The position numbers and the translations under genes were made by a program. 64,000 bases of DNA, taken from the NCBI GenBank assembly GCA_032881465.1, contig CP126168.1:1736001-1800000 (forward strand), read 5' to 3'. This document shows positions 43,275 to 51,478 of this stretch, in pieces. Origin of the DNA: Parvibaculaceae bacterium PLY_AMNH_Bact1. Its GTDB lineage: Bacteria; Pseudomonadota; Alphaproteobacteria; Parvibaculales; Parvibaculaceae. The notes beneath the pieces were generated by a model that was given only the letters and a program-made list of their open reading frames with translations, did no database searches and was not told the origin of the DNA. How positions within the stretch are numbered: position 1 is the first letter of the stretch; every line of letters begins with the position of its first letter.

Positions 43275-45680
43275 ATGAGCACAGCATTGAAAATCGGGAA
43301 ATGGGCAGGAATTGTTTTGTTGGCGGTAGTCGCCGTAGTCAGCCTCCTTCTTATGGACCGCTATGGTGCCGCCCGCCAATCAGTTGATGCCCATGACGGC
43401 AGTTTTCAGCTTGCTGGTCTCACTGCCCCTGTTGAAATCATCCGAGATCCAAACAGTGTGCCCCATATTTTTGGCACCAGTGAGGAAGATGTCGCTTTTG
43501 GCCTCGGTGTGACCCATGCGCAAGATCGCCTCTGGCAAATGGAGCTTTTCCGCCGTGTTGGCCAGGGACGCCTGGCTGAACTCCTCGGCAGCTTCGCCCT
43601 GCCCGCTGATCGATATCTCCGTACTCTCGATTTATATGGCCAAGCTCAAGCAACGGTGCCCGCACTCGCTCCCGAAACCCAAACAATGTTGGCCGCATAC
43701 GCAGCTGGCGTGAACTCCTATTTGGCGCAACGCAAAATCCCACTGCCGCCGGAATTCCTCTTCATGGCCCATTCCCCTGAGCCCTGGGAGCCAGCAGACT
43801 CTGTCGTCATGATCAAACTTCTGGCGCTTGGCCTCTCTGGCAATGCGACACGAGAACTCTCACGAGCGCGGCTGGCGGAAGTGCTGACGACGGACCAACT
43901 GGCAGCCTTCTTCCCACCCTATCCGGGAGACGGTCCGGTCGCCCTGCCCGATCTGGCAACCCTGTATGCGGATACACCAATCCGAGAGGCTGCCGCCGCA
44001 ATCCCCGACATCGGCCCCAAAGGCGCATCCAACAATTGGGTTGTGGATGGGCGCTACACGGCAAGTGGCAAGCCCCTGCTTGCGAATGACCCACACCTCG
44101 GCATGCTCGCCCCATCGATCTGGTATCTCGCCCATCTCGCCTACCCGGACCGCAATGTCGTCGGTGGCACAATAGCGGGCGTTCCAAGCGTCGTTCTCGG
44201 GCGAAACGACCACATCGCCTGGGGGTATACAAATACCGGCCCCGACACGCAGGATCTCTATGTCGAAAAGCTGAACCCGGACAATGCAAACGAGTATCTG
44301 ACACCTGATGGATACCAGCCATTCGAAGAGCGGACAGAAATCATAAAAGTGCGCTTCGGCAAGGATGAGACTTTCACGGTCCGTTCAACCAGAAATGGCC
44401 CGGTCCTCCCGTCTGATTTTTTTGGTGCCGACGAACTCATCGAAGAAGGTCATGTCCTAGCTCTCTCCTGGACCGCGTTTGCAAGTCCAGACCTCACAAT
44501 TGAGGCAGGCCATAACATTACCAAAGCCCAGAATTTCGAAGAGTTCCGAGATGCCCTGCGCTCGTACGTGGCCCCCATGCAGAACATGGTATTCGCAAAT
44601 GTCGACGGCGAAATTGGCTTTATCGCACCGGCACAAATCCCTGTGCGCAATGAAGCCCATGAAACCCAAGGCCTTATTCCGACACCAGGCTGGAAGACAG
44701 AAAACAGTTGGATCGGAACGATCCCCTTCGAGGGTCTCCCACAAACGTTCAACCCGCCGAGTGGCAAAATCGTTACCGCAAATAACAAAATTGTCTCTGA
44801 TAGCTATCCCTATTCCATCACCAAACAATGGGATCTTCCCTACCGAGCCGTGCGTATTGAAGAATTGTTGGCCGCGTCCACCGATCACACGGTCGAGAGC
44901 TTCAACAAGATGTTGATGGACAATGGGTCAAGCTTCGCGGCGAAATTCTCACCAATGCTTCTCAGCTTGGCGACAGACACCGCTGAGACCGCCCCGGTGC
45001 GTGCGCGCCTTGCCACCTGGGATCACAGAATGGATGGAGACAAGGCAGAACCCATTCTCTTCCTCAGCTGGATGCGGGAGCTCACCCGTCTTGTTTATGC
45101 CGACGAGCTGCAGGAAGAATTCGCATCCCGCTGGCGGTTCCACCCCGTGTTCATGGAACAGGTCCTGACCGGTATTGAAGGTAAAGAAATATGGTGCGAC
45201 AACACCACAACGCTAGACGTGGAAGAAACCTGCGTCGATCTTGTCGATGAAGCGCTGACAAAGGCCCTTACTGATGCGAAGATAAGATTTGGCGATGATG
45301 TGAACGCCTGGCGGTGGGACGAAGCGCACCCTGTTGTAAATCGCCACATTCCCGGATCATTTCTACCGCTGTTGGGGGAAGCTTTGACGATTGCCCGTCC
45401 GTCATCGGGTGGCAATCACACCATCAATCGCGGACAACATTCTATCGGGTCCAGCAATCCATTTGATAACATCCACGCAGCTGGCTACCGCGCGGTCTAC
45501 GATCTCGCTGACCTTGATGCATCGCGCTACATGATTTCAACGGGCCAATCAGGCAACCCTTTTTCACCAGACTTTGATCACATGGCGACGAACTGGGCTG
45601 GAGGAGGAAGCATCACCATTGCAACAGACCGCGCCTCTATCGATGCCAAATCCCGGATGAAACTCTCACCCGCTTCCTGA
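43275..45680 (+). CDS. Penicillin acylase (Ntn-hydrolase) family protein
   Basis: Periplasmic hydrolase of 801 residues with an N-terminal hydrophobic segment (AGIVLLAVVAVVSLLLM). Family enzymes mature by self-cleavage into alpha and beta chains, the new beta N-terminus being serine; here S252 in GPKGASNNWVVDGR is the candidate nucleophile. YAAGVNSYL, NDPHLGM and NHTINRGQHS are conserved family segments. Members cleave acyl groups from penicillins, cephalosporins or acyl-homoserine lactones, so quorum quenching is one option; substrate is not predictable. It is convergent with the Exb operon, 3 bases from its last gene. Confidence 0.9.
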   Translation: MSTALKIGKWAGIVLLAVVAVVSLLLMDRYGAARQSVDAHDGSFQLAGLTAPVEIIRDPNSVPHIFGTSEEDVAFGLGVTHAQDRLWQMELFRRVGQGRLAELLGSFALPADRYLRTLDLYGQAQATVPALAPETQTMLAAYAAGVNSYLAQRKIPLPPEFLFMAHSPEPWEPADSVVMIKLLALGLSGNATRELSRARLAEVLTTDQLAAFFPPYPGDGPVALPDLATLYADTPIREAAAAIPDIGPKGASNNWVVDGRYTASGKPLLANDPHLGMLAPSIWYLAHLAYPDRNVVGGTIAGVPSVVLGRNDHIAWGYTNTGPDTQDLYVEKLNPDNANEYLTPDGYQPFEERTEIIKVRFGKDETFTVRSTRNGPVLPSDFFGADELIEEGHVLALSWTAFASPDLTIEAGHNITKAQNFEEFRDALRSYVAPMQNMVFANVDGEIGFIAPAQIPVRNEAHETQGLIPTPGWKTENSWIGTIPFEGLPQTFNPPSGKIVTANNKIVSDSYPYSITKQWDLPYRAVRIEELLAASTDHTVESFNKMLMDNGSSFAAKFSPMLLSLATDTAETAPVRARLATWDHRMDGDKAEPILFLSWMRELTRLVYADELQEEFASRWRFHPVFMEQVLTGIEGKEIWCDNTTTLDVEETCVDLVDEALTKALTDAKIRFGDDVNAWRWDEAHPVVNRHIPGSFLPLLGEALTIARPSSGGNHTINRGQHSIGSSNPFDNIHAAGYRAVYDLADLDASRYMISTGQSGNPFSPDFDHMATNWAGGGSITIATDRASIDAKSRMKLSPAS

Positions 45681-45683
45681 GGC

Positions 45684-46595
45684 TTAGCGGATGGAGCCTT
45701 CACCGGCAAGACGGTAAGACTTGCAGTGTGGAGACGAATTGCGCAAACACTGTGCGTAATAGAGGCGCAAGACCGACCCATCGAGGTTCATGTCATAACA
45801 ATCCTTGGTGCCATAGGAGATGATTTCTGATTGATGGCACCAGCGATTGCCTTCAATCCACCAACGGCCACTTCCGCGCTTCGAGCGGGTAGACGATCGT
45901 TCTTGGTGGTAGGTCTTATAGTGATAGTAGATCAGCTTCACGCGGCTGGTACCGTCCGCATTCAACTGGATCTCAACATTGGTTAGACGGTTGCCCCCCT
46001 GAATGTCCAGACGACCCATCTCAAGATAAAGCGTCTGACCGGTGAGCCGCGCACTGATCGCGTTTCCGGTAAGTGAATTGCCGGGACGGTTGCGGATCGT
46101 CTCTTCCAAATTACCGCCGCCGCCATAGTGATCATATCCAACAATCCCAGTCGATCCACCGGGAGTAGCAACCTCTTCTTCGCCACGCTGCTGCGTGGTC
46201 GCCGCTTCTTGTGGCTGTACATCTTCATTGCGCCGCGTTGGCAACTGATCGGTCACCTGAGGTTTGGGCTCTGGCTTCACCTCAGGTTTTGGTTCTGGCT
46301 TAGGTTCTGGCTCGGGCGTGGGCTCAGGCACCGGATCGATGTCCGCATCCGCGAAAGTCGGAGTTTGTTGATCCGACCCATCAATTTGGGCCGCAGCGTC
46401 ACCATTATTGTCCAGCCCAGCAGCTAGCTGGAAGGTCAAGGAATCGCCATCGCCAGGTCCTTCTGACCCAAATATTCCCCCACCTAATATAAAATAGACC
46501 ACCACAAGCAAATGAAGGCCAAGAGACCAAAGCAACACGGTTCGAAGACGTGGCGCTTCAAACCCAACCAGGTGGTCTGGTTCAGCAACACTCAT
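45684..46595 (-). CDS. TonB-like protein with unusual cysteine-containing C-terminal domain
   Basis: Predicted partner of the adjacent ExbB/ExbD genes, 303 residues. One N-terminal membrane helix (VLLWSLGLHLLVVVYFILGG, near residues 20-40) and a Pro/Glu/Lys-rich periplasmic segment (residues 88-115, repeats of PEPKPEPK) are as in TonB. The last 125 residues are not a TonB C-terminal domain: they hold four cysteines (253, 266, 283, 291), GSGRWWIEGNRWC and DCYDMNLDGSVLRLYY, and resemble the small lipocalin-like DUF995 type by eye. It overlaps the second ExbD gene by 4 bases. It may not contact TonB-dependent receptors; function unknown. Confidence 0.7.
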   Translation of the reverse strand: MSVAEPDHLVGFEAPRLRTVLLWSLGLHLLVVVYFILGGGIFGSEGPGDGDSLTFQLAAGLDNNGDAAAQIDGSDQQTPTFADADIDPVPEPTPEPEPKPEPKPEVKPEPKPQVTDQLPTRRNEDVQPQEAATTQQRGEEEVATPGGSTGIVGYDHYGGGGNLEETIRNRPGNSLTGNAISARLTGQTLYLEMGRLDIQGGNRLTNVEIQLNADGTSRVKLIYYHYKTYHQERSSTRSKRGSGRWWIEGNRWCHQSEIISYGTKDCYDMNLDGSVLRLYYAQCLRNSSPHCKSYRLAGEGSIR

Positions 46596-46996
46596 TCAGA
46601 TTGCTCCGTCACCAGGTTCACCTCACGCACACCGACGTTCCGTAGGCCCTCCATCAACTTAATCAACTCATGGGCAGGTGCATCCGCATCTGCCTTAATG
46701 GAGACGTCGTAGATACCTTGCTCATCCAGGAAATCACGCAGCGCATAGGCAGCAAGATCAGCGCCCATGACACGGTCGCCCAGGTAGACGAACCCATCTG
46801 CCTCGACATAAAGCACCAAATCTTCGGACGCCCGCTTATCATCCACCTGGCCCACGGGCAGATCGACTTCCACATCATCTGTTGGCTGCAACGTTCCTGC
46901 CAAAAGGAAAAAGATCAAGAGCAGGAAGACCACATTGATAAGCGGCACAACAGACTCATAAGGCCGACGCTGCGGCGGTTCATCAAATTCGATCAT
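46592..46996 (-). CDS. ExbD/TolR family protein, second copy
   Basis: Single-span inner-membrane protein of 134 residues. PLINVVFLLLIFFLLAGTLQ is the membrane helix, where the conserved Asp of ExbD (in PLIDVVFLLLIFF) is replaced by Asn. The periplasmic part ends in MEGLRNVGVREVNLVTEQ. Overlaps by 4 bases at both ends with neighbours, showing tight coupling. The proton-relay Asp is absent here, which suggests the partner copy carries proton transfer. Confidence 0.9.
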   Translation of the reverse strand: MIEFDEPPQRRPYESVVPLINVVFLLLIFFLLAGTLQPTDDVEVDLPVGQVDDKRASEDLVLYVEADGFVYLGDRVMGADLAAYALRDFLDEQGIYDVSIKADADAPAHELIKLMEGLRNVGVREVNLVTEQSE

Positions 46997-47400
46997 CGCC
47001 GCAAGCTCTCCACCCGGGACGTGCCAATAGACTGGGCACCACTATTGCGCGCGGCTTCAATTGCTGAAATTAGCGGCTGCACCGCTGAGCCATTTTCCGC
47101 CAGAATTGAAACAACAGCCTCAGGATCACCGCCGAGATTGTTGCGAATGCCCTCGCTCAATGCCTCTGACACAATCGGCTCGCCATCGAGGCGCAGACTT
47201 CCGTCTGTCAGCACCCAGACCTCAACCACATGGCGGTCCGTCTCCACCTCTTCTGGGTCTGGCGCCGGTGTCAGTACAGCAATCGATTGAGTCTGCAAAA
47301 AGGAACTCGCCAGCATAAAAAAGATCAAGAGCAGGAACACCACATCAATCAGCGGCGTTAAGCTCACGATCCTCTTTTTGTGAATTGCTTCATCAAACAT
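46993..47400 (-). CDS. ExbD/TolR family protein, first copy
   Basis: Inner-membrane protein of 135 residues. Its helix PLIDVVFLLLIFFMLASSFL keeps the Asp that acts as proton carrier in ExbD/TolR. It follows the ExbB gene by 12 bases and overlaps the second copy by 4. Two ExbD-type proteins in a row with one ExbB are seen in several TonB-type operons, where they may form mixed dimers. Confidence 0.93.
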   Translation of the reverse strand: MFDEAIHKKRIVSLTPLIDVVFLLLIFFMLASSFLQTQSIAVLTPAPDPEEVETDRHVVEVWVLTDGSLRLDGEPIVSEALSEGIRNNLGGDPEAVVSILAENGSAVQPLISAIEAARNSGAQSIGTSRVESLRR

Positions 47401-47412
47401 GGGCAGACCGCC

Positions 47413-48213
47413 TTAGGCTGATTTAAGAGCAGCGATCAACCTTGAGGACGCATCACGTAGCGTGAGACGCACCAGATCCACCCTGCTCTCCAAGAGGTTA
47501 AGCGACGCAATAGCGGGAATAGCGACTGCAAGACCAACCGCTGTTGTAAGAAGCGCCACCCAGATCCCTCCGGAAAGGATCGCCGGATCAACCTTGTTAC
47601 CCGCTAGCTGCAATTGCTGAAACGCGTTGATCATCCCAATCACGGTGCCCAGGAGACCAAGCAGAGGCGAGATGTTCCCGATCACTTCAAGCCACCGGAA
47701 ATAGCTCTGCAGTCCGCCCAACTCATTCCCACCAACGCGGGCGATCTCTTCTGCAGCACTCCCGCCATTCTGCGCGCCTTCAACACCTGCCAACAATGTG
47801 CGCGCCACCGGCGAGCGGGTTTTGCGCAGAATAGCGGCTGCCCCATCCCTATCGCCAGATTTGACTTTATCGATAACCGCATCAATGAACGCTCGGCGGG
47901 TCAAACCTGCGCGCCAGAATTGGAACACCTTGAGTAGAATAATCGCGAGAGACAGAACTGACAGGCAGAGCAAAATGACCACTATGGGGCCACCTTTATC
48001 CACCAGAGGAATAAGCTCCCAAATGCCGCCATCAGCCGCGGCGGCGGCAGCGTCAAGCCCGCTTAGTGCGTCTGCGCCCTCTGTCGCTATGCCCTCCGTT
48101 ATTGCATCAACAGCTGTGTCAACGTTGGCTTCTACATCCTCACTCACGACACTTTCCTCATCGGCCACCGGTATCACTCCCCAAATCAGCCCGATTGCAT
48201 CCGAGCCGAACAA
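47413..48213 (-). CDS. MotA/TolQ/ExbB proton channel family protein
   Basis: Inner-membrane channel subunit of 266 residues, three predicted membrane helices: ILLCLSVLSLAIILLKVF, then two near VIGNISPLLGLLGTVIGMINAF and LLTTAVGLAVAIPAIASLN. ISPLLGLLGTVIGMI is the family signature. An acidic Ala-rich segment of about 60 residues precedes helix 1. First gene of an operon of four with two ExbD and one TonB-like gene. An imperfect palindrome sits directly before its ATG, and a divergent MarR regulator lies 180 bases away. Confidence 0.93.
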   Translation of the reverse strand: MFGSDAIGLIWGVIPVADEESVVSEDVEANVDTAVDAITEGIATEGADALSGLDAAAAAADGGIWELIPLVDKGGPIVVILLCLSVLSLAIILLKVFQFWRAGLTRRAFIDAVIDKVKSGDRDGAAAILRKTRSPVARTLLAGVEGAQNGGSAAEEIARVGGNELGGLQSYFRWLEVIGNISPLLGLLGTVIGMINAFQQLQLAGNKVDPAILSGGIWVALLTTAVGLAVAIPAIASLNLLESRVDLVRLTLRDASSRLIAALKSA

Positions 48214-48214
48214 T

Positions 48215-48233
48215 TAGTAACGTAACTTTACTA
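48215..48233. promoter_or_regulatory. Palindromic putative operator before exbB
   Basis: TAGTAACGTAACTTTACTA is a 19-base palindrome with a single pair of mismatches (besides the centre), reading into the bases just before the exbB ATG. Its size fits a MarR dimer site, and a MarR gene is divergent from the operon. It does not match the iron-control or RirA boxes I know. Confidence 0.4.
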
Positions 48234-48396
48234 GAACACCGGAAAGGCAATTTGGTCAACCCGGATATCCGCAAACAGACAAATCAAATTAATCGGTGCA
48301 TTCGCTTCGACAAAAGACCAGAATCTCTCTACCAAACGACTCTAGCGCATCGGTTAGTGGCAAAAGAGCAGAAGAACAACAAACCTAAAGAGCTAG

Positions 48397-48873
48397 ATGG
48401 TTAATCAAGACACAGACCGCGACGAGCTAGATCCGTTCTACTTCATTGAATTGTTTTCAGAAGTGGGTGCGCTGCTTCAGCATAATTATGACAGCCGCAG
48501 CGGTCTTAGCCGAAACCAGACTCGCGTCATCGTAACACTGCTGAAGACAGATGGTCTGACACAGACCGAACTCGCCGACGCACTGGGCATACATAAAGTA
48601 TCCGCTGGCATCTACATCTCAGAACTTGAAGAGATAGGCCTGGTTGAGCGCAGACCACACCCTCAAGATGGTCGGGCCAAGTGCATTTTCCTGACCTCAG
48701 TTCTCCATGAACTAAGGAGCGGTGGTGAAGACATTGTCAAGGAGATGCACAAAGGTGTTATTGAGGGAATTGAGCCTGAGGAATATCTGCAGCTCCTCAG
48801 CTATATGCGTCTCATGCGCGACAACCTGAAAAAAATGACCCCCACGCCACCGCCAGAAAGAACACCAGATTAA
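48397..48873 (+). CDS. MarR-family transcriptional regulator
   Basis: Winged-helix regulator of 158 residues. SRNQTRVIVTLLKTDGLTQTE, ALGIHKVSAGIYISELEEIG and LVERRPHPQDGRAKCIFLT form helices and wing of the MarR DNA-binding domain. It carries a proline-rich C-terminus (TPTPPPERTPD). It is divergent from the Exb operon and convergent with the flavin reductase, so it may control either; no ligand is apparent. Confidence 0.88.
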   Translation: MVNQDTDRDELDPFYFIELFSEVGALLQHNYDSRSGLSRNQTRVIVTLLKTDGLTQTELADALGIHKVSAGIYISELEEIGLVERRPHPQDGRAKCIFLTSVLHELRSGGEDIVKEMHKGVIEGIEPEEYLQLLSYMRLMRDNLKKMTPTPPPERTPD

Positions 48874-49650: not shown

Positions 49651-50517
49651 ATGCAGCTGATTGTAGGTTCTATAGTAGTTTGTCTCTGCGTATTTGGCGG
49701 TTATGCCGCAATGGGCGGCAAGCTTGGCGTTCTGTGGCAGCCATTTGAATTTGTCATCATTCTGGGCGCCGCGATCGGCGCCTTCATTATTGGCAATCCC
49801 AGCAGTATTCTGAAGAGCATGGGCAGCATCTTTGGCACTTTGTTCAAAGGGTCCAAATACTCCAAGGAAGCATTCCTGGAGCTGCTTGGCCTGCAATTCA
49901 CGTTATTCAAGCTGGCTAAAGCAAAGGGCTCCCTCGCTCTTGAAGCCCATATCGAGGACCCACACGGGTCTGACATTTTCAACCAGTTCCCGATTTTTGC
50001 CGCCGATCACCATGCTGTGGAATTCATGTGCGACTACCTACGCATGATCACCTTGGGCACCGAGAATGCACATGAGCTCGAAGCCTTGATGGATGAAGAG
50101 CTTGAAACTCACCATCAGGAGCAAGAGCTGGCCGTCGGATCCATCCAGGCACTTGGGGATGGCACACCGGCCCTCGGAATTGTTGCCGCCGTGTTGGGTG
50201 TGATCAAAACCATGGGTTCGATCGATCAACCACCAGAAATTTTGGGTCACCTTATCGGGGGCGCGCTCGTTGGGACCTTCTTCGGAGTGTTTGTCGCCTA
50301 CGGTTTCTTCACACCTATGGCGACATTCCTGAAAGCTGCCTACGAAGCGGAAAGCAAATATTTCCTCTCCATGAAGGCAGGCCTCCTTGCACACATGAAT
50401 GGCTATGCGCCTGCTGTGTCAGTTGAGTTTGCGCGGAAAGCAGTCATGACGCCCTACCGACCCACTTTTGCAGAAGTCGAAGAGTCGACCGGCAACCTCT
50501 CTATACCCACAAGTTAA
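49651..50517 (+). CDS. motA: Flagellar motor stator protein MotA
   Basis: Proton-channel stator subunit, 288 residues. IVGSIVVCLCVFGGYAAMGG, VIILGAAIGAFIIG and LGIVAAVLGVIKTMG are membrane helices; the cytoplasmic loop EAHIEDPHGSDIF, the segment MRMI and the charged region that meets FliG are as in other alphaproteobacterial MotA. motB follows 13 bases after the stop. Other flagellar genes are not in the window, but motility is implied. Confidence 0.96.
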   Translation: MQLIVGSIVVCLCVFGGYAAMGGKLGVLWQPFEFVIILGAAIGAFIIGNPSSILKSMGSIFGTLFKGSKYSKEAFLELLGLQFTLFKLAKAKGSLALEAHIEDPHGSDIFNQFPIFAADHHAVEFMCDYLRMITLGTENAHELEALMDEELETHHQEQELAVGSIQALGDGTPALGIVAAVLGVIKTMGSIDQPPEILGHLIGGALVGTFFGVFVAYGFFTPMATFLKAAYEAESKYFLSMKAGLLAHMNGYAPAVSVEFARKAVMTPYRPTFAEVEESTGNLSIPTS

Positions 50518-50530
50518 GTTGTAGCCACCC

Positions 50531-51478
50531 ATGTCGATGAACGAACAACCCATCATCATCAAGAAGGTGAAGAAAGCGGCTCACGGCCACCACGGTGGCG
50601 CGTGGAAAATTGCCTACGCCGACTTCGTTACCGCGATGATGGCCTTTTTCTTGTTGATGTGGCTCCTCGCCATGACCACACCGGAACAAAAGCAGGGCCT
50701 CGCTGACTATTTTGCACCGGCCAGCGTCAGCCGCTCAACGTCAGGTGCTGGTGGTGTAATGGGGGGTACTGCGTTTGACGTGGACGGGTCCCGGATGTCG
50801 GGTTCCGCACCAAAAGTTATGATGTCAATTTCGACACCGGCAGCACCCAAAAGCCCGGAAACCGAAAACCAAAGAACGGCAACAACGTCTGATGGCAAGG
50901 ACTCGTCAAACGGCACCGACCCAGGAACCGCTGATTTTGAATCATCTGCGCTTGAGAAAGACCAGAATGCAGCCAATGACCAAAGTCAGTTCGCAAGTGC
51001 TGCTGCAAGCCTTCGACAGTCCATGCAGGACCTACCCGAACTCGCTGAACTGTCGCGGAACATCATTATCGAAGAGACGCCAGAAGGACTGCATATCCAG
51101 CTGACAGACCAGGATGGACGTTCCATGTTCCCGCCAGGACATGCGGAACCTTACGAACGCACCCGGCTCGTCCTAGAGCAGGTTGCAAAAGCCATTCAAC
51201 GATTGCCCAACCGCCTCGTCATTACCGGCCACACCGACGCCGCATCACTGGACGGAATCCCGGGATATTCCAACTGGGAGCTGACAGCTGATCGCGCGAA
51301 CGCAACACGGCGCATTTTGCAGATGAATGGCATTAAGTCAGACCAAATCTCAGAGGTCGCGGGCAAAGCAGATTCTGATCCGCTTTTCCCGGAAGATGTC
51401 TATCTGCCGGCAAACAGGCGCGTTGGCATTCTCCTATTGAACGAAGCTCCTGTTATTCCACCAGGTTTCGGACGTTGA
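50531..51478 (+). CDS. motB: Flagellar motor stator protein MotB
   Basis: Stator subunit that anchors the motor to peptidoglycan, 315 residues. The proton-binding Asp is D31 in YADFVTAMMAFFLLMWLL. A Ser/Thr-rich periplasmic linker is followed by the OmpA-like domain from about residue 170 (ITGHTDAASLDG, SADRANATRRIL-like segment, ANRRVGILLL). It is preceded by motA. Confidence 0.96.
   Translation: MSMNEQPIIIKKVKKAAHGHHGGAWKIAYADFVTAMMAFFLLMWLLAMTTPEQKQGLADYFAPASVSRSTSGAGGVMGGTAFDVDGSRMSGSAPKVMMSISTPAAPKSPETENQRTATTSDGKDSSNGTDPGTADFESSALEKDQNAANDQSQFASAAASLRQSMQDLPELAELSRNIIIEETPEGLHIQLTDQDGRSMFPPGHAEPYERTRLVLEQVAKAIQRLPNRLVITGHTDAASLDGIPGYSNWELTADRANATRRILQMNGIKSDQISEVAGKADSDPLFPEDVYLPANRRVGILLLNEAPVIPPGFGR

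Follow-up and report, generated by a model that had tools for sequence, protein, structure and literature searches.

We identified in the genome of Parvibaculaceae bacterium PLY_AMNH_Bact1 (GCA_032881465.1; G000) a conserved four-gene operon that probably encodes a Ton/Tol-type trans-envelope transducer, driven by protons and regulated by a MarR protein, with an exchanged TonB head and a partner other than a TonB-dependent receptor. The operon occupies positions 45684-48213 of the window, by which we mean the whole stretch of 64,000 nucleotides that was analysed (contig CP126168.1, forward-strand positions 1,736,001 to 1,800,000). It is read from the minus strand in the order ExbB, ExbD1 (with the channel Asp), ExbD2 (with Asn) and a TonB-like protein of 303 amino acids. 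A preliminary description, made from the sequence alone, had reported a four-gene operon here with 4-base overlaps throughout. All four genes are present, and the overlaps hold for the ExbD1/ExbD2 and ExbD2/TonB-like junctions but not for ExbB and ExbD1, which are separated by a 12-base gap. The operon had also been put forward as a candidate undescribed system, a standing that it keeps as a conserved operon of which we recognised no description in the literature (open-licence papers only). Two devices of this architecture, Ton and Tol, are well described. The existence of a further operon, conserved and regulated but equipped with a different head, would mean that evolution has put the motor to an additional use in the envelope.

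Motor proteins and predicted docking of the TonB-like protein

The three motor proteins scored well above the Pfam cut-offs of 22.9 bits for ExbB and 25.4 bits for ExbD (Table 1). When aligned with its Escherichia coli counterpart, the ExbB of the window has an N-terminus about 40 residues longer and retains the equivalents of Ser34, Thr148, Thr181 and Pro190. Alignment with E. coli ExbD bore out the earlier observation that the second ExbD carries Asn in place of the Asp of the proton channel, which is present in ExbD1. This division is fixed among the family rows, with Asp in 33 of 33 copies of ExbD1 and Asn in 33 of 33 copies of ExbD2 (29 genomes). In E. coli, ExbD D25N is a named inactive mutant (PMC11658791, excerpt).

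The N-terminal part of the TonB-like protein has, as previously described, the helix and the Pro/Glu/Lys linker of TonB, here placed at residues 20-38 and 84-140. Its only TonB match in Pfam was a sub-threshold one to the polyproline family TonB_N (21.1, cut-off 33). Ser24 and His28 in the helix have the same spacing as TonB Ser16-xxx-His20, the residues that touch ExbB in E. coli (PMC12215075, excerpt). A transmembrane His was found in 43 of 46 head-bearing proteins, which are related, some nearly identical, and include the window's copy (SxxxH in 39, AxxxH in 4); as a control, [SA]xxxH occurred in 36 of 230 helices of other mechanically called open reading frames. The His is missing in the short proteins L067 and L077 and in L128. 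Past the TonB helix, a strand known as the D-box binds the ExbD pair (PMC10907165, excerpt). Of the 46 proteins, 32 show a D-box-like pattern of six residues after the helix, where shuffled segments would give 12.3; by eye, 30 of these 32 sit at the strand concerned. This strand reads F[QE]L[AS] in 33 of the 46 proteins. The Pro-rich linker recurs as well. Coupling of the TonB-like protein to the motor, as predicted from these features, is well supported by sequence.

The C-terminal head

Behind the linker lies a head with cysteines at residues 253, 266, 283 and 291 and a WWIEGN motif beginning at residue 245, in agreement with the preliminary description, which had put four cysteines and a WWIEGNRWC motif in the last 125 residues; the four cysteines are invariant in 30 of 30 aligned rows. 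That description had also denied the C-terminus a TonB fold, and we likewise found no TonB_C domain in the TonB-like protein (Pfam, E up to 1) or in the 30 C-terminal rows. Compared with 16 TonB_C domains, the head profile gave 1.5% in hhalign, with 2.4% and 3.0% in further comparisons, and a TonB_C domain in disguise was rejected on the Pfam and profile-profile results. The genome contains two TonB_C places, neither of them at the TonB-like gene.

The proposal of a novel domain was half right. Like the head, DUF995 (PF06191) is extracytoplasmic and shows a pattern of the type G-x-T ... G-x-W ... C ... C. The head differs in having an extra Cys pair and no match at the Pfam gathering score in 30 head rows or 9 distant relatives. 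Direct comparison with three Pfam-confirmed DUF995 domains reached just 9%, so the head enters the DUF995-like set only through intermediates and appears to be a member of a set of extracytoplasmic beta domains. The link is provided by a profile of eight distant membrane-anchored proteins (A8; families f42, f4, f54 and f99), which matched the head at 99.1% (E 5e-19) and the three DUF995 domains at 94% (E 1e-7). The 99.1% is not an independent value, because all eight A8 rows came from searches with profiles of the head, six with A1 and two with A4; independent evidence for the six comes from their A1 E-values of 9e-16 to 2.6e-9. The 97% and 99% obtained in comparisons with the A5 profile are not independent either, since its ten rows other than L082 were all found with A4. 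Built from Pfam DUF995 alone, the DUF995 profile (A7) has only 3 rows because the domain reached its gathering score in 2 of 142 class genomes and in 1 of 9 genomes of one order, at the same place.

Structure prediction gave a first head model with a predicted local distance difference test score (pLDDT) of 44.3 and a best one (AlphaFold2, 5-row alignment) that was mostly beta strands, with a pLDDT of 61.7 and a predicted template modelling score (pTM) of 0.55. Using the latter, weak model, Foldseek returned no match at E 0.001 (best E 0.087), and VIA-align a best Z of 6.4 over 60 residues, with lipocalins among other beta proteins; we assign the head no fold. Searches with the single sequence and with A8 found no solved relatives of the head. 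A search of solved structures with A4 yielded nine weak rows, of which six are designed beta-trefoil/Symfoil-type proteins. With a lowest E of 0.0012 and no single stretch that passed, none was used.

Head-like domains also occurred in other settings. The C-termini of three proteins that look kinase-like by eye (L130, L131 and L132) matched the head profile, and small proteins with a signal-like start carry head-like stretches (by eye). One genome (G028) has a second copy of the head in a separate protein with a signal-like start and no helix His, downstream of the TonB-like gene (L077:8569-9258). Membrane-anchored head proteins with long Pro- or Glu-rich linkers were seen in three other families (L061-L066), and the six stretches contained no ExbB or ExbD match.

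Conservation and putative regulation of the operon

The TonB-like protein was found in 36 of the 37 genomes of the window's family, the other 35 copies having 37-96% identity, and the operon is therefore not a chance assembly. The single-sequence search covered 61 genomes, these 37 and 24 other members of the class, among which there were two marginal matches. Four named relatives bear the titles Rhodobiaceae or alphaproteobacterium. ExbD1 and ExbD2 adjoin the TonB-like gene in 33 of 34 flanked loci, or 29 of 30 genomes when 4 places counted twice are allowed for. The search for flanked loci returned none for 6 of the 36 family genomes with the protein: by coordinates, the ExbD pair stands beside the TonB-like gene in G010 and G020; G031 and G007, when read, lacked the pair; and the loci of G019 and G011 were left out of the locus reading. 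With at most 10 candidates scored per genome, the head profile matched 16 of 385 sampled class genomes. Outside the family, the operon was present in G161, G264 and G347 (all f126) and in G381 (f167, on a contig that stops within ExbB); the ExbD2 of these four has Asn in three cases and Ser in G347. Neither the head nor a DUF995 protein was matched on plasmids, and none of the 57 viral stretches that matched a pattern encodes a head relative.

A gene for a MarR-family regulator diverges from the operon, and between the two we found the inverted core [AC]GTAA-N7-TTAC[TG] in 17 of 17 family loci read (the window, L037-L040, L068 and L070-L080), including three without motor genes. The core lies mostly inside TTT...AAA flanks. 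A MarR gene was matched beside the operon or its remnant in all 16 of the other family loci; in the three f126 loci, neither the core nor a MarR match was found. The window's exact 12-base repeat, a motif chosen after it had been sighted, is present a single time in the 64 kb, where base composition predicts 0.0018 occurrences. The site is thus conserved among these loci, and the MarR protein would bind it.

Probable origin from a recurrent Ton cassette

A second operon in the same genome (C1:2583791-2586000; L005, L069) encodes ExbB, an Asp-bearing and then an Asn-bearing ExbD, and a canonical TonB. Beside it lies an ATPase gene that looks heme-transporter-like by eye, and there is a receptor plug domain at 2.5917 Mb. 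An ExbD2 profile search of 289 class genomes recovered, as its best matches, 24 loci outside the head-swapped group (L178-L201). Their second ExbD has Asn in 24 of 24, which is partly the result of selection, as the search profile (A10) was built from Asn-type ExbD2s; this does not apply to the neighbouring genes, an upstream ExbD with Asp in 23 of 24 (the other at a contig end) and a canonical TonB next in 22 of 24. ExbB-ExbD(Asp)-ExbD(Asn)-canonical TonB is thus a recurrent alphaproteobacterial cassette. The preliminary description had treated the Asn as a peculiarity of the operon, which these loci do not support. Since the cassette has the same gene order and Asp/Asn pair, but a canonical TonB as its fourth gene, the operon looks like a conserved variant of it in which the TonB head was exchanged. 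In the ExbD2 tree, 2 changes account for the head-swapped group, compared with a mean of 19.8 after shuffling; support is weak: one long orphan branch falls inside the group, and 1 change sufficed in just 18% of bootstrap trees.

Tandem exbD genes have been reported elsewhere. A heme cluster of Ruegeria TM1040 has a duplicated exbD (PMC5225302, excerpt), and the excerpted text makes no mention of an Asn in it. The tonB-exbB-exbD1-exbD2 cluster of Xanthomonas (PMC3551730, excerpt) shares the tandem exbD genes with the window operon and differs in gene order and in having a named TonB. Many alphaproteobacterial operons encode adjacent Asp and Asn copies of ExbD. Should both copies pair within one motor, such motors would be natural single-site ones and would bear directly on how many protonatable sites are required. 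A fused ExbD1-ExbD2 frame in L190 was considered as a natural fusion that would prove the mixed pair and was rejected as a frame slip because the last part of ExbD1 could be followed, by eye, in a different frame.

A putative transducer that outlasts its motor

Three genomes (G017, G031 and G007) retain the TonB-like gene with no exbB-exbD1-exbD2 match at the site. The gene stands there between MarR and a 3-hydroxyisobutyrate dehydrogenase-like gene, with an acylase gene also in between in G007. The strands past the helix in G031 and G007 (INVTIF and LEVTLV) resemble canonical D-boxes, and all three genomes have ExbDs elsewhere. In G089, conversely, a motor of the window's kind lies beside a gene that looks HemB-like by eye, and the head protein is encoded elsewhere. 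The TonB-like protein appears to be the conserved output and the dedicated motor dispensable, its place probably taken by another ExbBD or by TolQR.

Canonical TonB genes can also stand apart from a motor. One in the window's genome (L205:3402-4127, at about 685.4-686.1 kb) lies beside an XRE-type regulator, with no ExbB or ExbD match in the 8 kb read, and the same arrangement was seen in G022 and G024.

Proposed mechanism and alternatives

With TonB-ExbB-ExbD the operon shares the ExbB and ExbD genes, the single N-terminal SxxxH helix, the D-box-like strand and the Pro-rich linker; it differs in the absence, by sequence, of the TonB C-terminal domain, in a second ExbD without Asp and in the repeat beside MarR. 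By analogy with TonB, we propose that ExbB forms the ring of the motor and that its pore houses a mixed pair of ExbD1 and ExbD2, which would leave one proton-carrying Asp per motor. In the TonB-like protein, the His28 helix would contact ExbB, the D-box-like strand would dock on the ExbD pair, and the Pro-rich linker would span the periplasm. The four-Cys beta head would then bind a partner located at the outer membrane or close to it, and this partner is unlikely to be a TonB-dependent receptor. The divergent MarR protein would probably repress the operon through the inverted repeat and release it on a small-molecule or stress signal.

Several observations weigh against this proposal. The motif counts come from related proteins, as stated above, and L128, one of these head-bearing proteins, lacks the helix His. 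Trp38 of E. coli ExbB, the contact of TonB His20, is replaced by Leu in the window, and the TonB-like protein L018 of G017, which has no adjacent ExbBD, has an Arg in its strand (MKYQRAA) that may reflect decay rather than use. The best model of the head is weak. The head could also bind TonB boxes in an unrelated way, and the operon motor may drive an ordinary TonB as well in G022, since the only non-Tol ExbDs of that genome are the operon pair. As to regulation, the operator was noticed first and tested afterwards, no such repeat was found in L206 of G089, a genome with a related motor, and the MarR protein might instead serve the neighbouring flavin-reductase-like gene.

The operon could alternatively be the cell's general Ton motor and the TonB-like protein a divergent TonB that serves TonB-dependent receptors through a different head. 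The inventory of the window's genome (five Plug places and two TonB_C places, including the one in L205 with no motor match in the 8 kb read) would fit such a role, as would the three ExbD places of G022 (one in a Tol cluster and two in the window-type operon) and the lack of a TonB_C match in G347 and G161, though in G161 the heme-type TonB is cut by the contig end. We nonetheless regard this as unlikely: TonB_C was matched in 37 of 37 family genomes, 36 of them above the cut-off, the head has no detectable similarity to TonB_C, and its relatives turn up, by eye, in short proteins that begin with a signal-like stretch and at the C-terminal ends of kinase-like proteins. The TolQ-TolR-TolA system has the same architecture, a motor and a long periplasmic transducer with an SxxxH helix, and NCBIfam tolA_full weakly covers residues 20-140 of the TonB-like protein (24.3 bits, cut-off 59.45). 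A second Tol system that maintains envelope integrity by acting on lipoproteins or peptidoglycan near the outer membrane is nevertheless quite improbable, given that the genome has a cluster elsewhere that looks TolQ-TolR-TolA-TolB-like by eye and that the weak match falls on the helix and linker, not on the TolA C-terminus; Pfam found no TolA family at E up to 1 in the whole TonB-like protein or in the 30 C-terminal rows. We give very little credence to a sensory head, one that would detect a ligand in the periplasm and use the motor for gating or reporting instead of pulling on a partner. MarR control is typical of ligand-responsive genes, and related domains end the kinase-like proteins L130-L132, yet the TonB-like protein has no cytoplasmic output domain and its Pro-rich linker recurs, as in the force-transmitting TonB and TolA.

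A MarR-regulated transducer that pulls on another partner is the reading that we prefer. More tentatively, it may stand next to Ton and Tol as a third type of proton-driven trans-envelope transducer, defined by MarR regulation, a DUF995-like four-Cys head, an envelope partner that is not a receptor and a mixed ExbD pair with a single Asp; the same single-Asp motor would then also drive many alphaproteobacterial TonB systems.

Feature coordinates and neighbouring genes

The coordinates of the operon and its regulatory region are given in Table 1. For ExbB, a GTG start at 48168 is possible instead of the TTG at 48213, as the frame of the relative in L070 opens there (VADE...).

Table 1. Features of the operon and of the adjacent regulatory region (window positions).
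Feature	Position	Strand	Basis or remark
ExbB, ring of the motor (predicted)	47413..48168	-	Open frame to TTG 48213; Pfam MotA_ExbB 93.6 bits
ExbD1 with channel Asp, residue 19 (codon 47344-47346)	46993..47400	-	Pfam ExbD 71.1 bits; E. coli ExbD alignment
ExbD2 with Asn, residue 21 (codon 46934-46936), at the channel Asp site	46592..46996	-	Pfam ExbD 73.5 bits
TonB-like transducer (putative), 303 amino acids	45684..46595	-	
Transmembrane helix of the TonB-like protein, residues 20-38, with Ser24 and His28	46482..46538	-	
D-box-like strand LTFQLAA, residues 53-59	46419..46439	-	Motif definition from PMC10907165 (excerpt)
Pro/Glu/Lys linker, residues 84-140	46176..46346	-	14 Pro, 10 Glu and 4 Lys in 57 residues
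C-terminal head domain, residues 164-303, four Cys	45687..46106	-	DUF995-like via intermediates; not TonB_C by profile
Inverted repeat, core TAGTAA-N7-TTACTA at 48215-48233; candidate MarR operator	48212..48235		
Divergent MarR-family protein; candidate regulator of the operon	48397..48873	+	Pfam MarR_2 47.8 bits

A penicillin-amidase/PvdQ-like acylase gene (window 43275-45680) ends 3 bases short of the TonB-like gene, and an acylase gene was matched beside the operon in 7 of the 16 other family loci (L037-L040, L070, L071 and L079). MotA-like and MotB-like genes lie near the operon (window 49651-51478), and MotB matches were also present in the three f126 loci.

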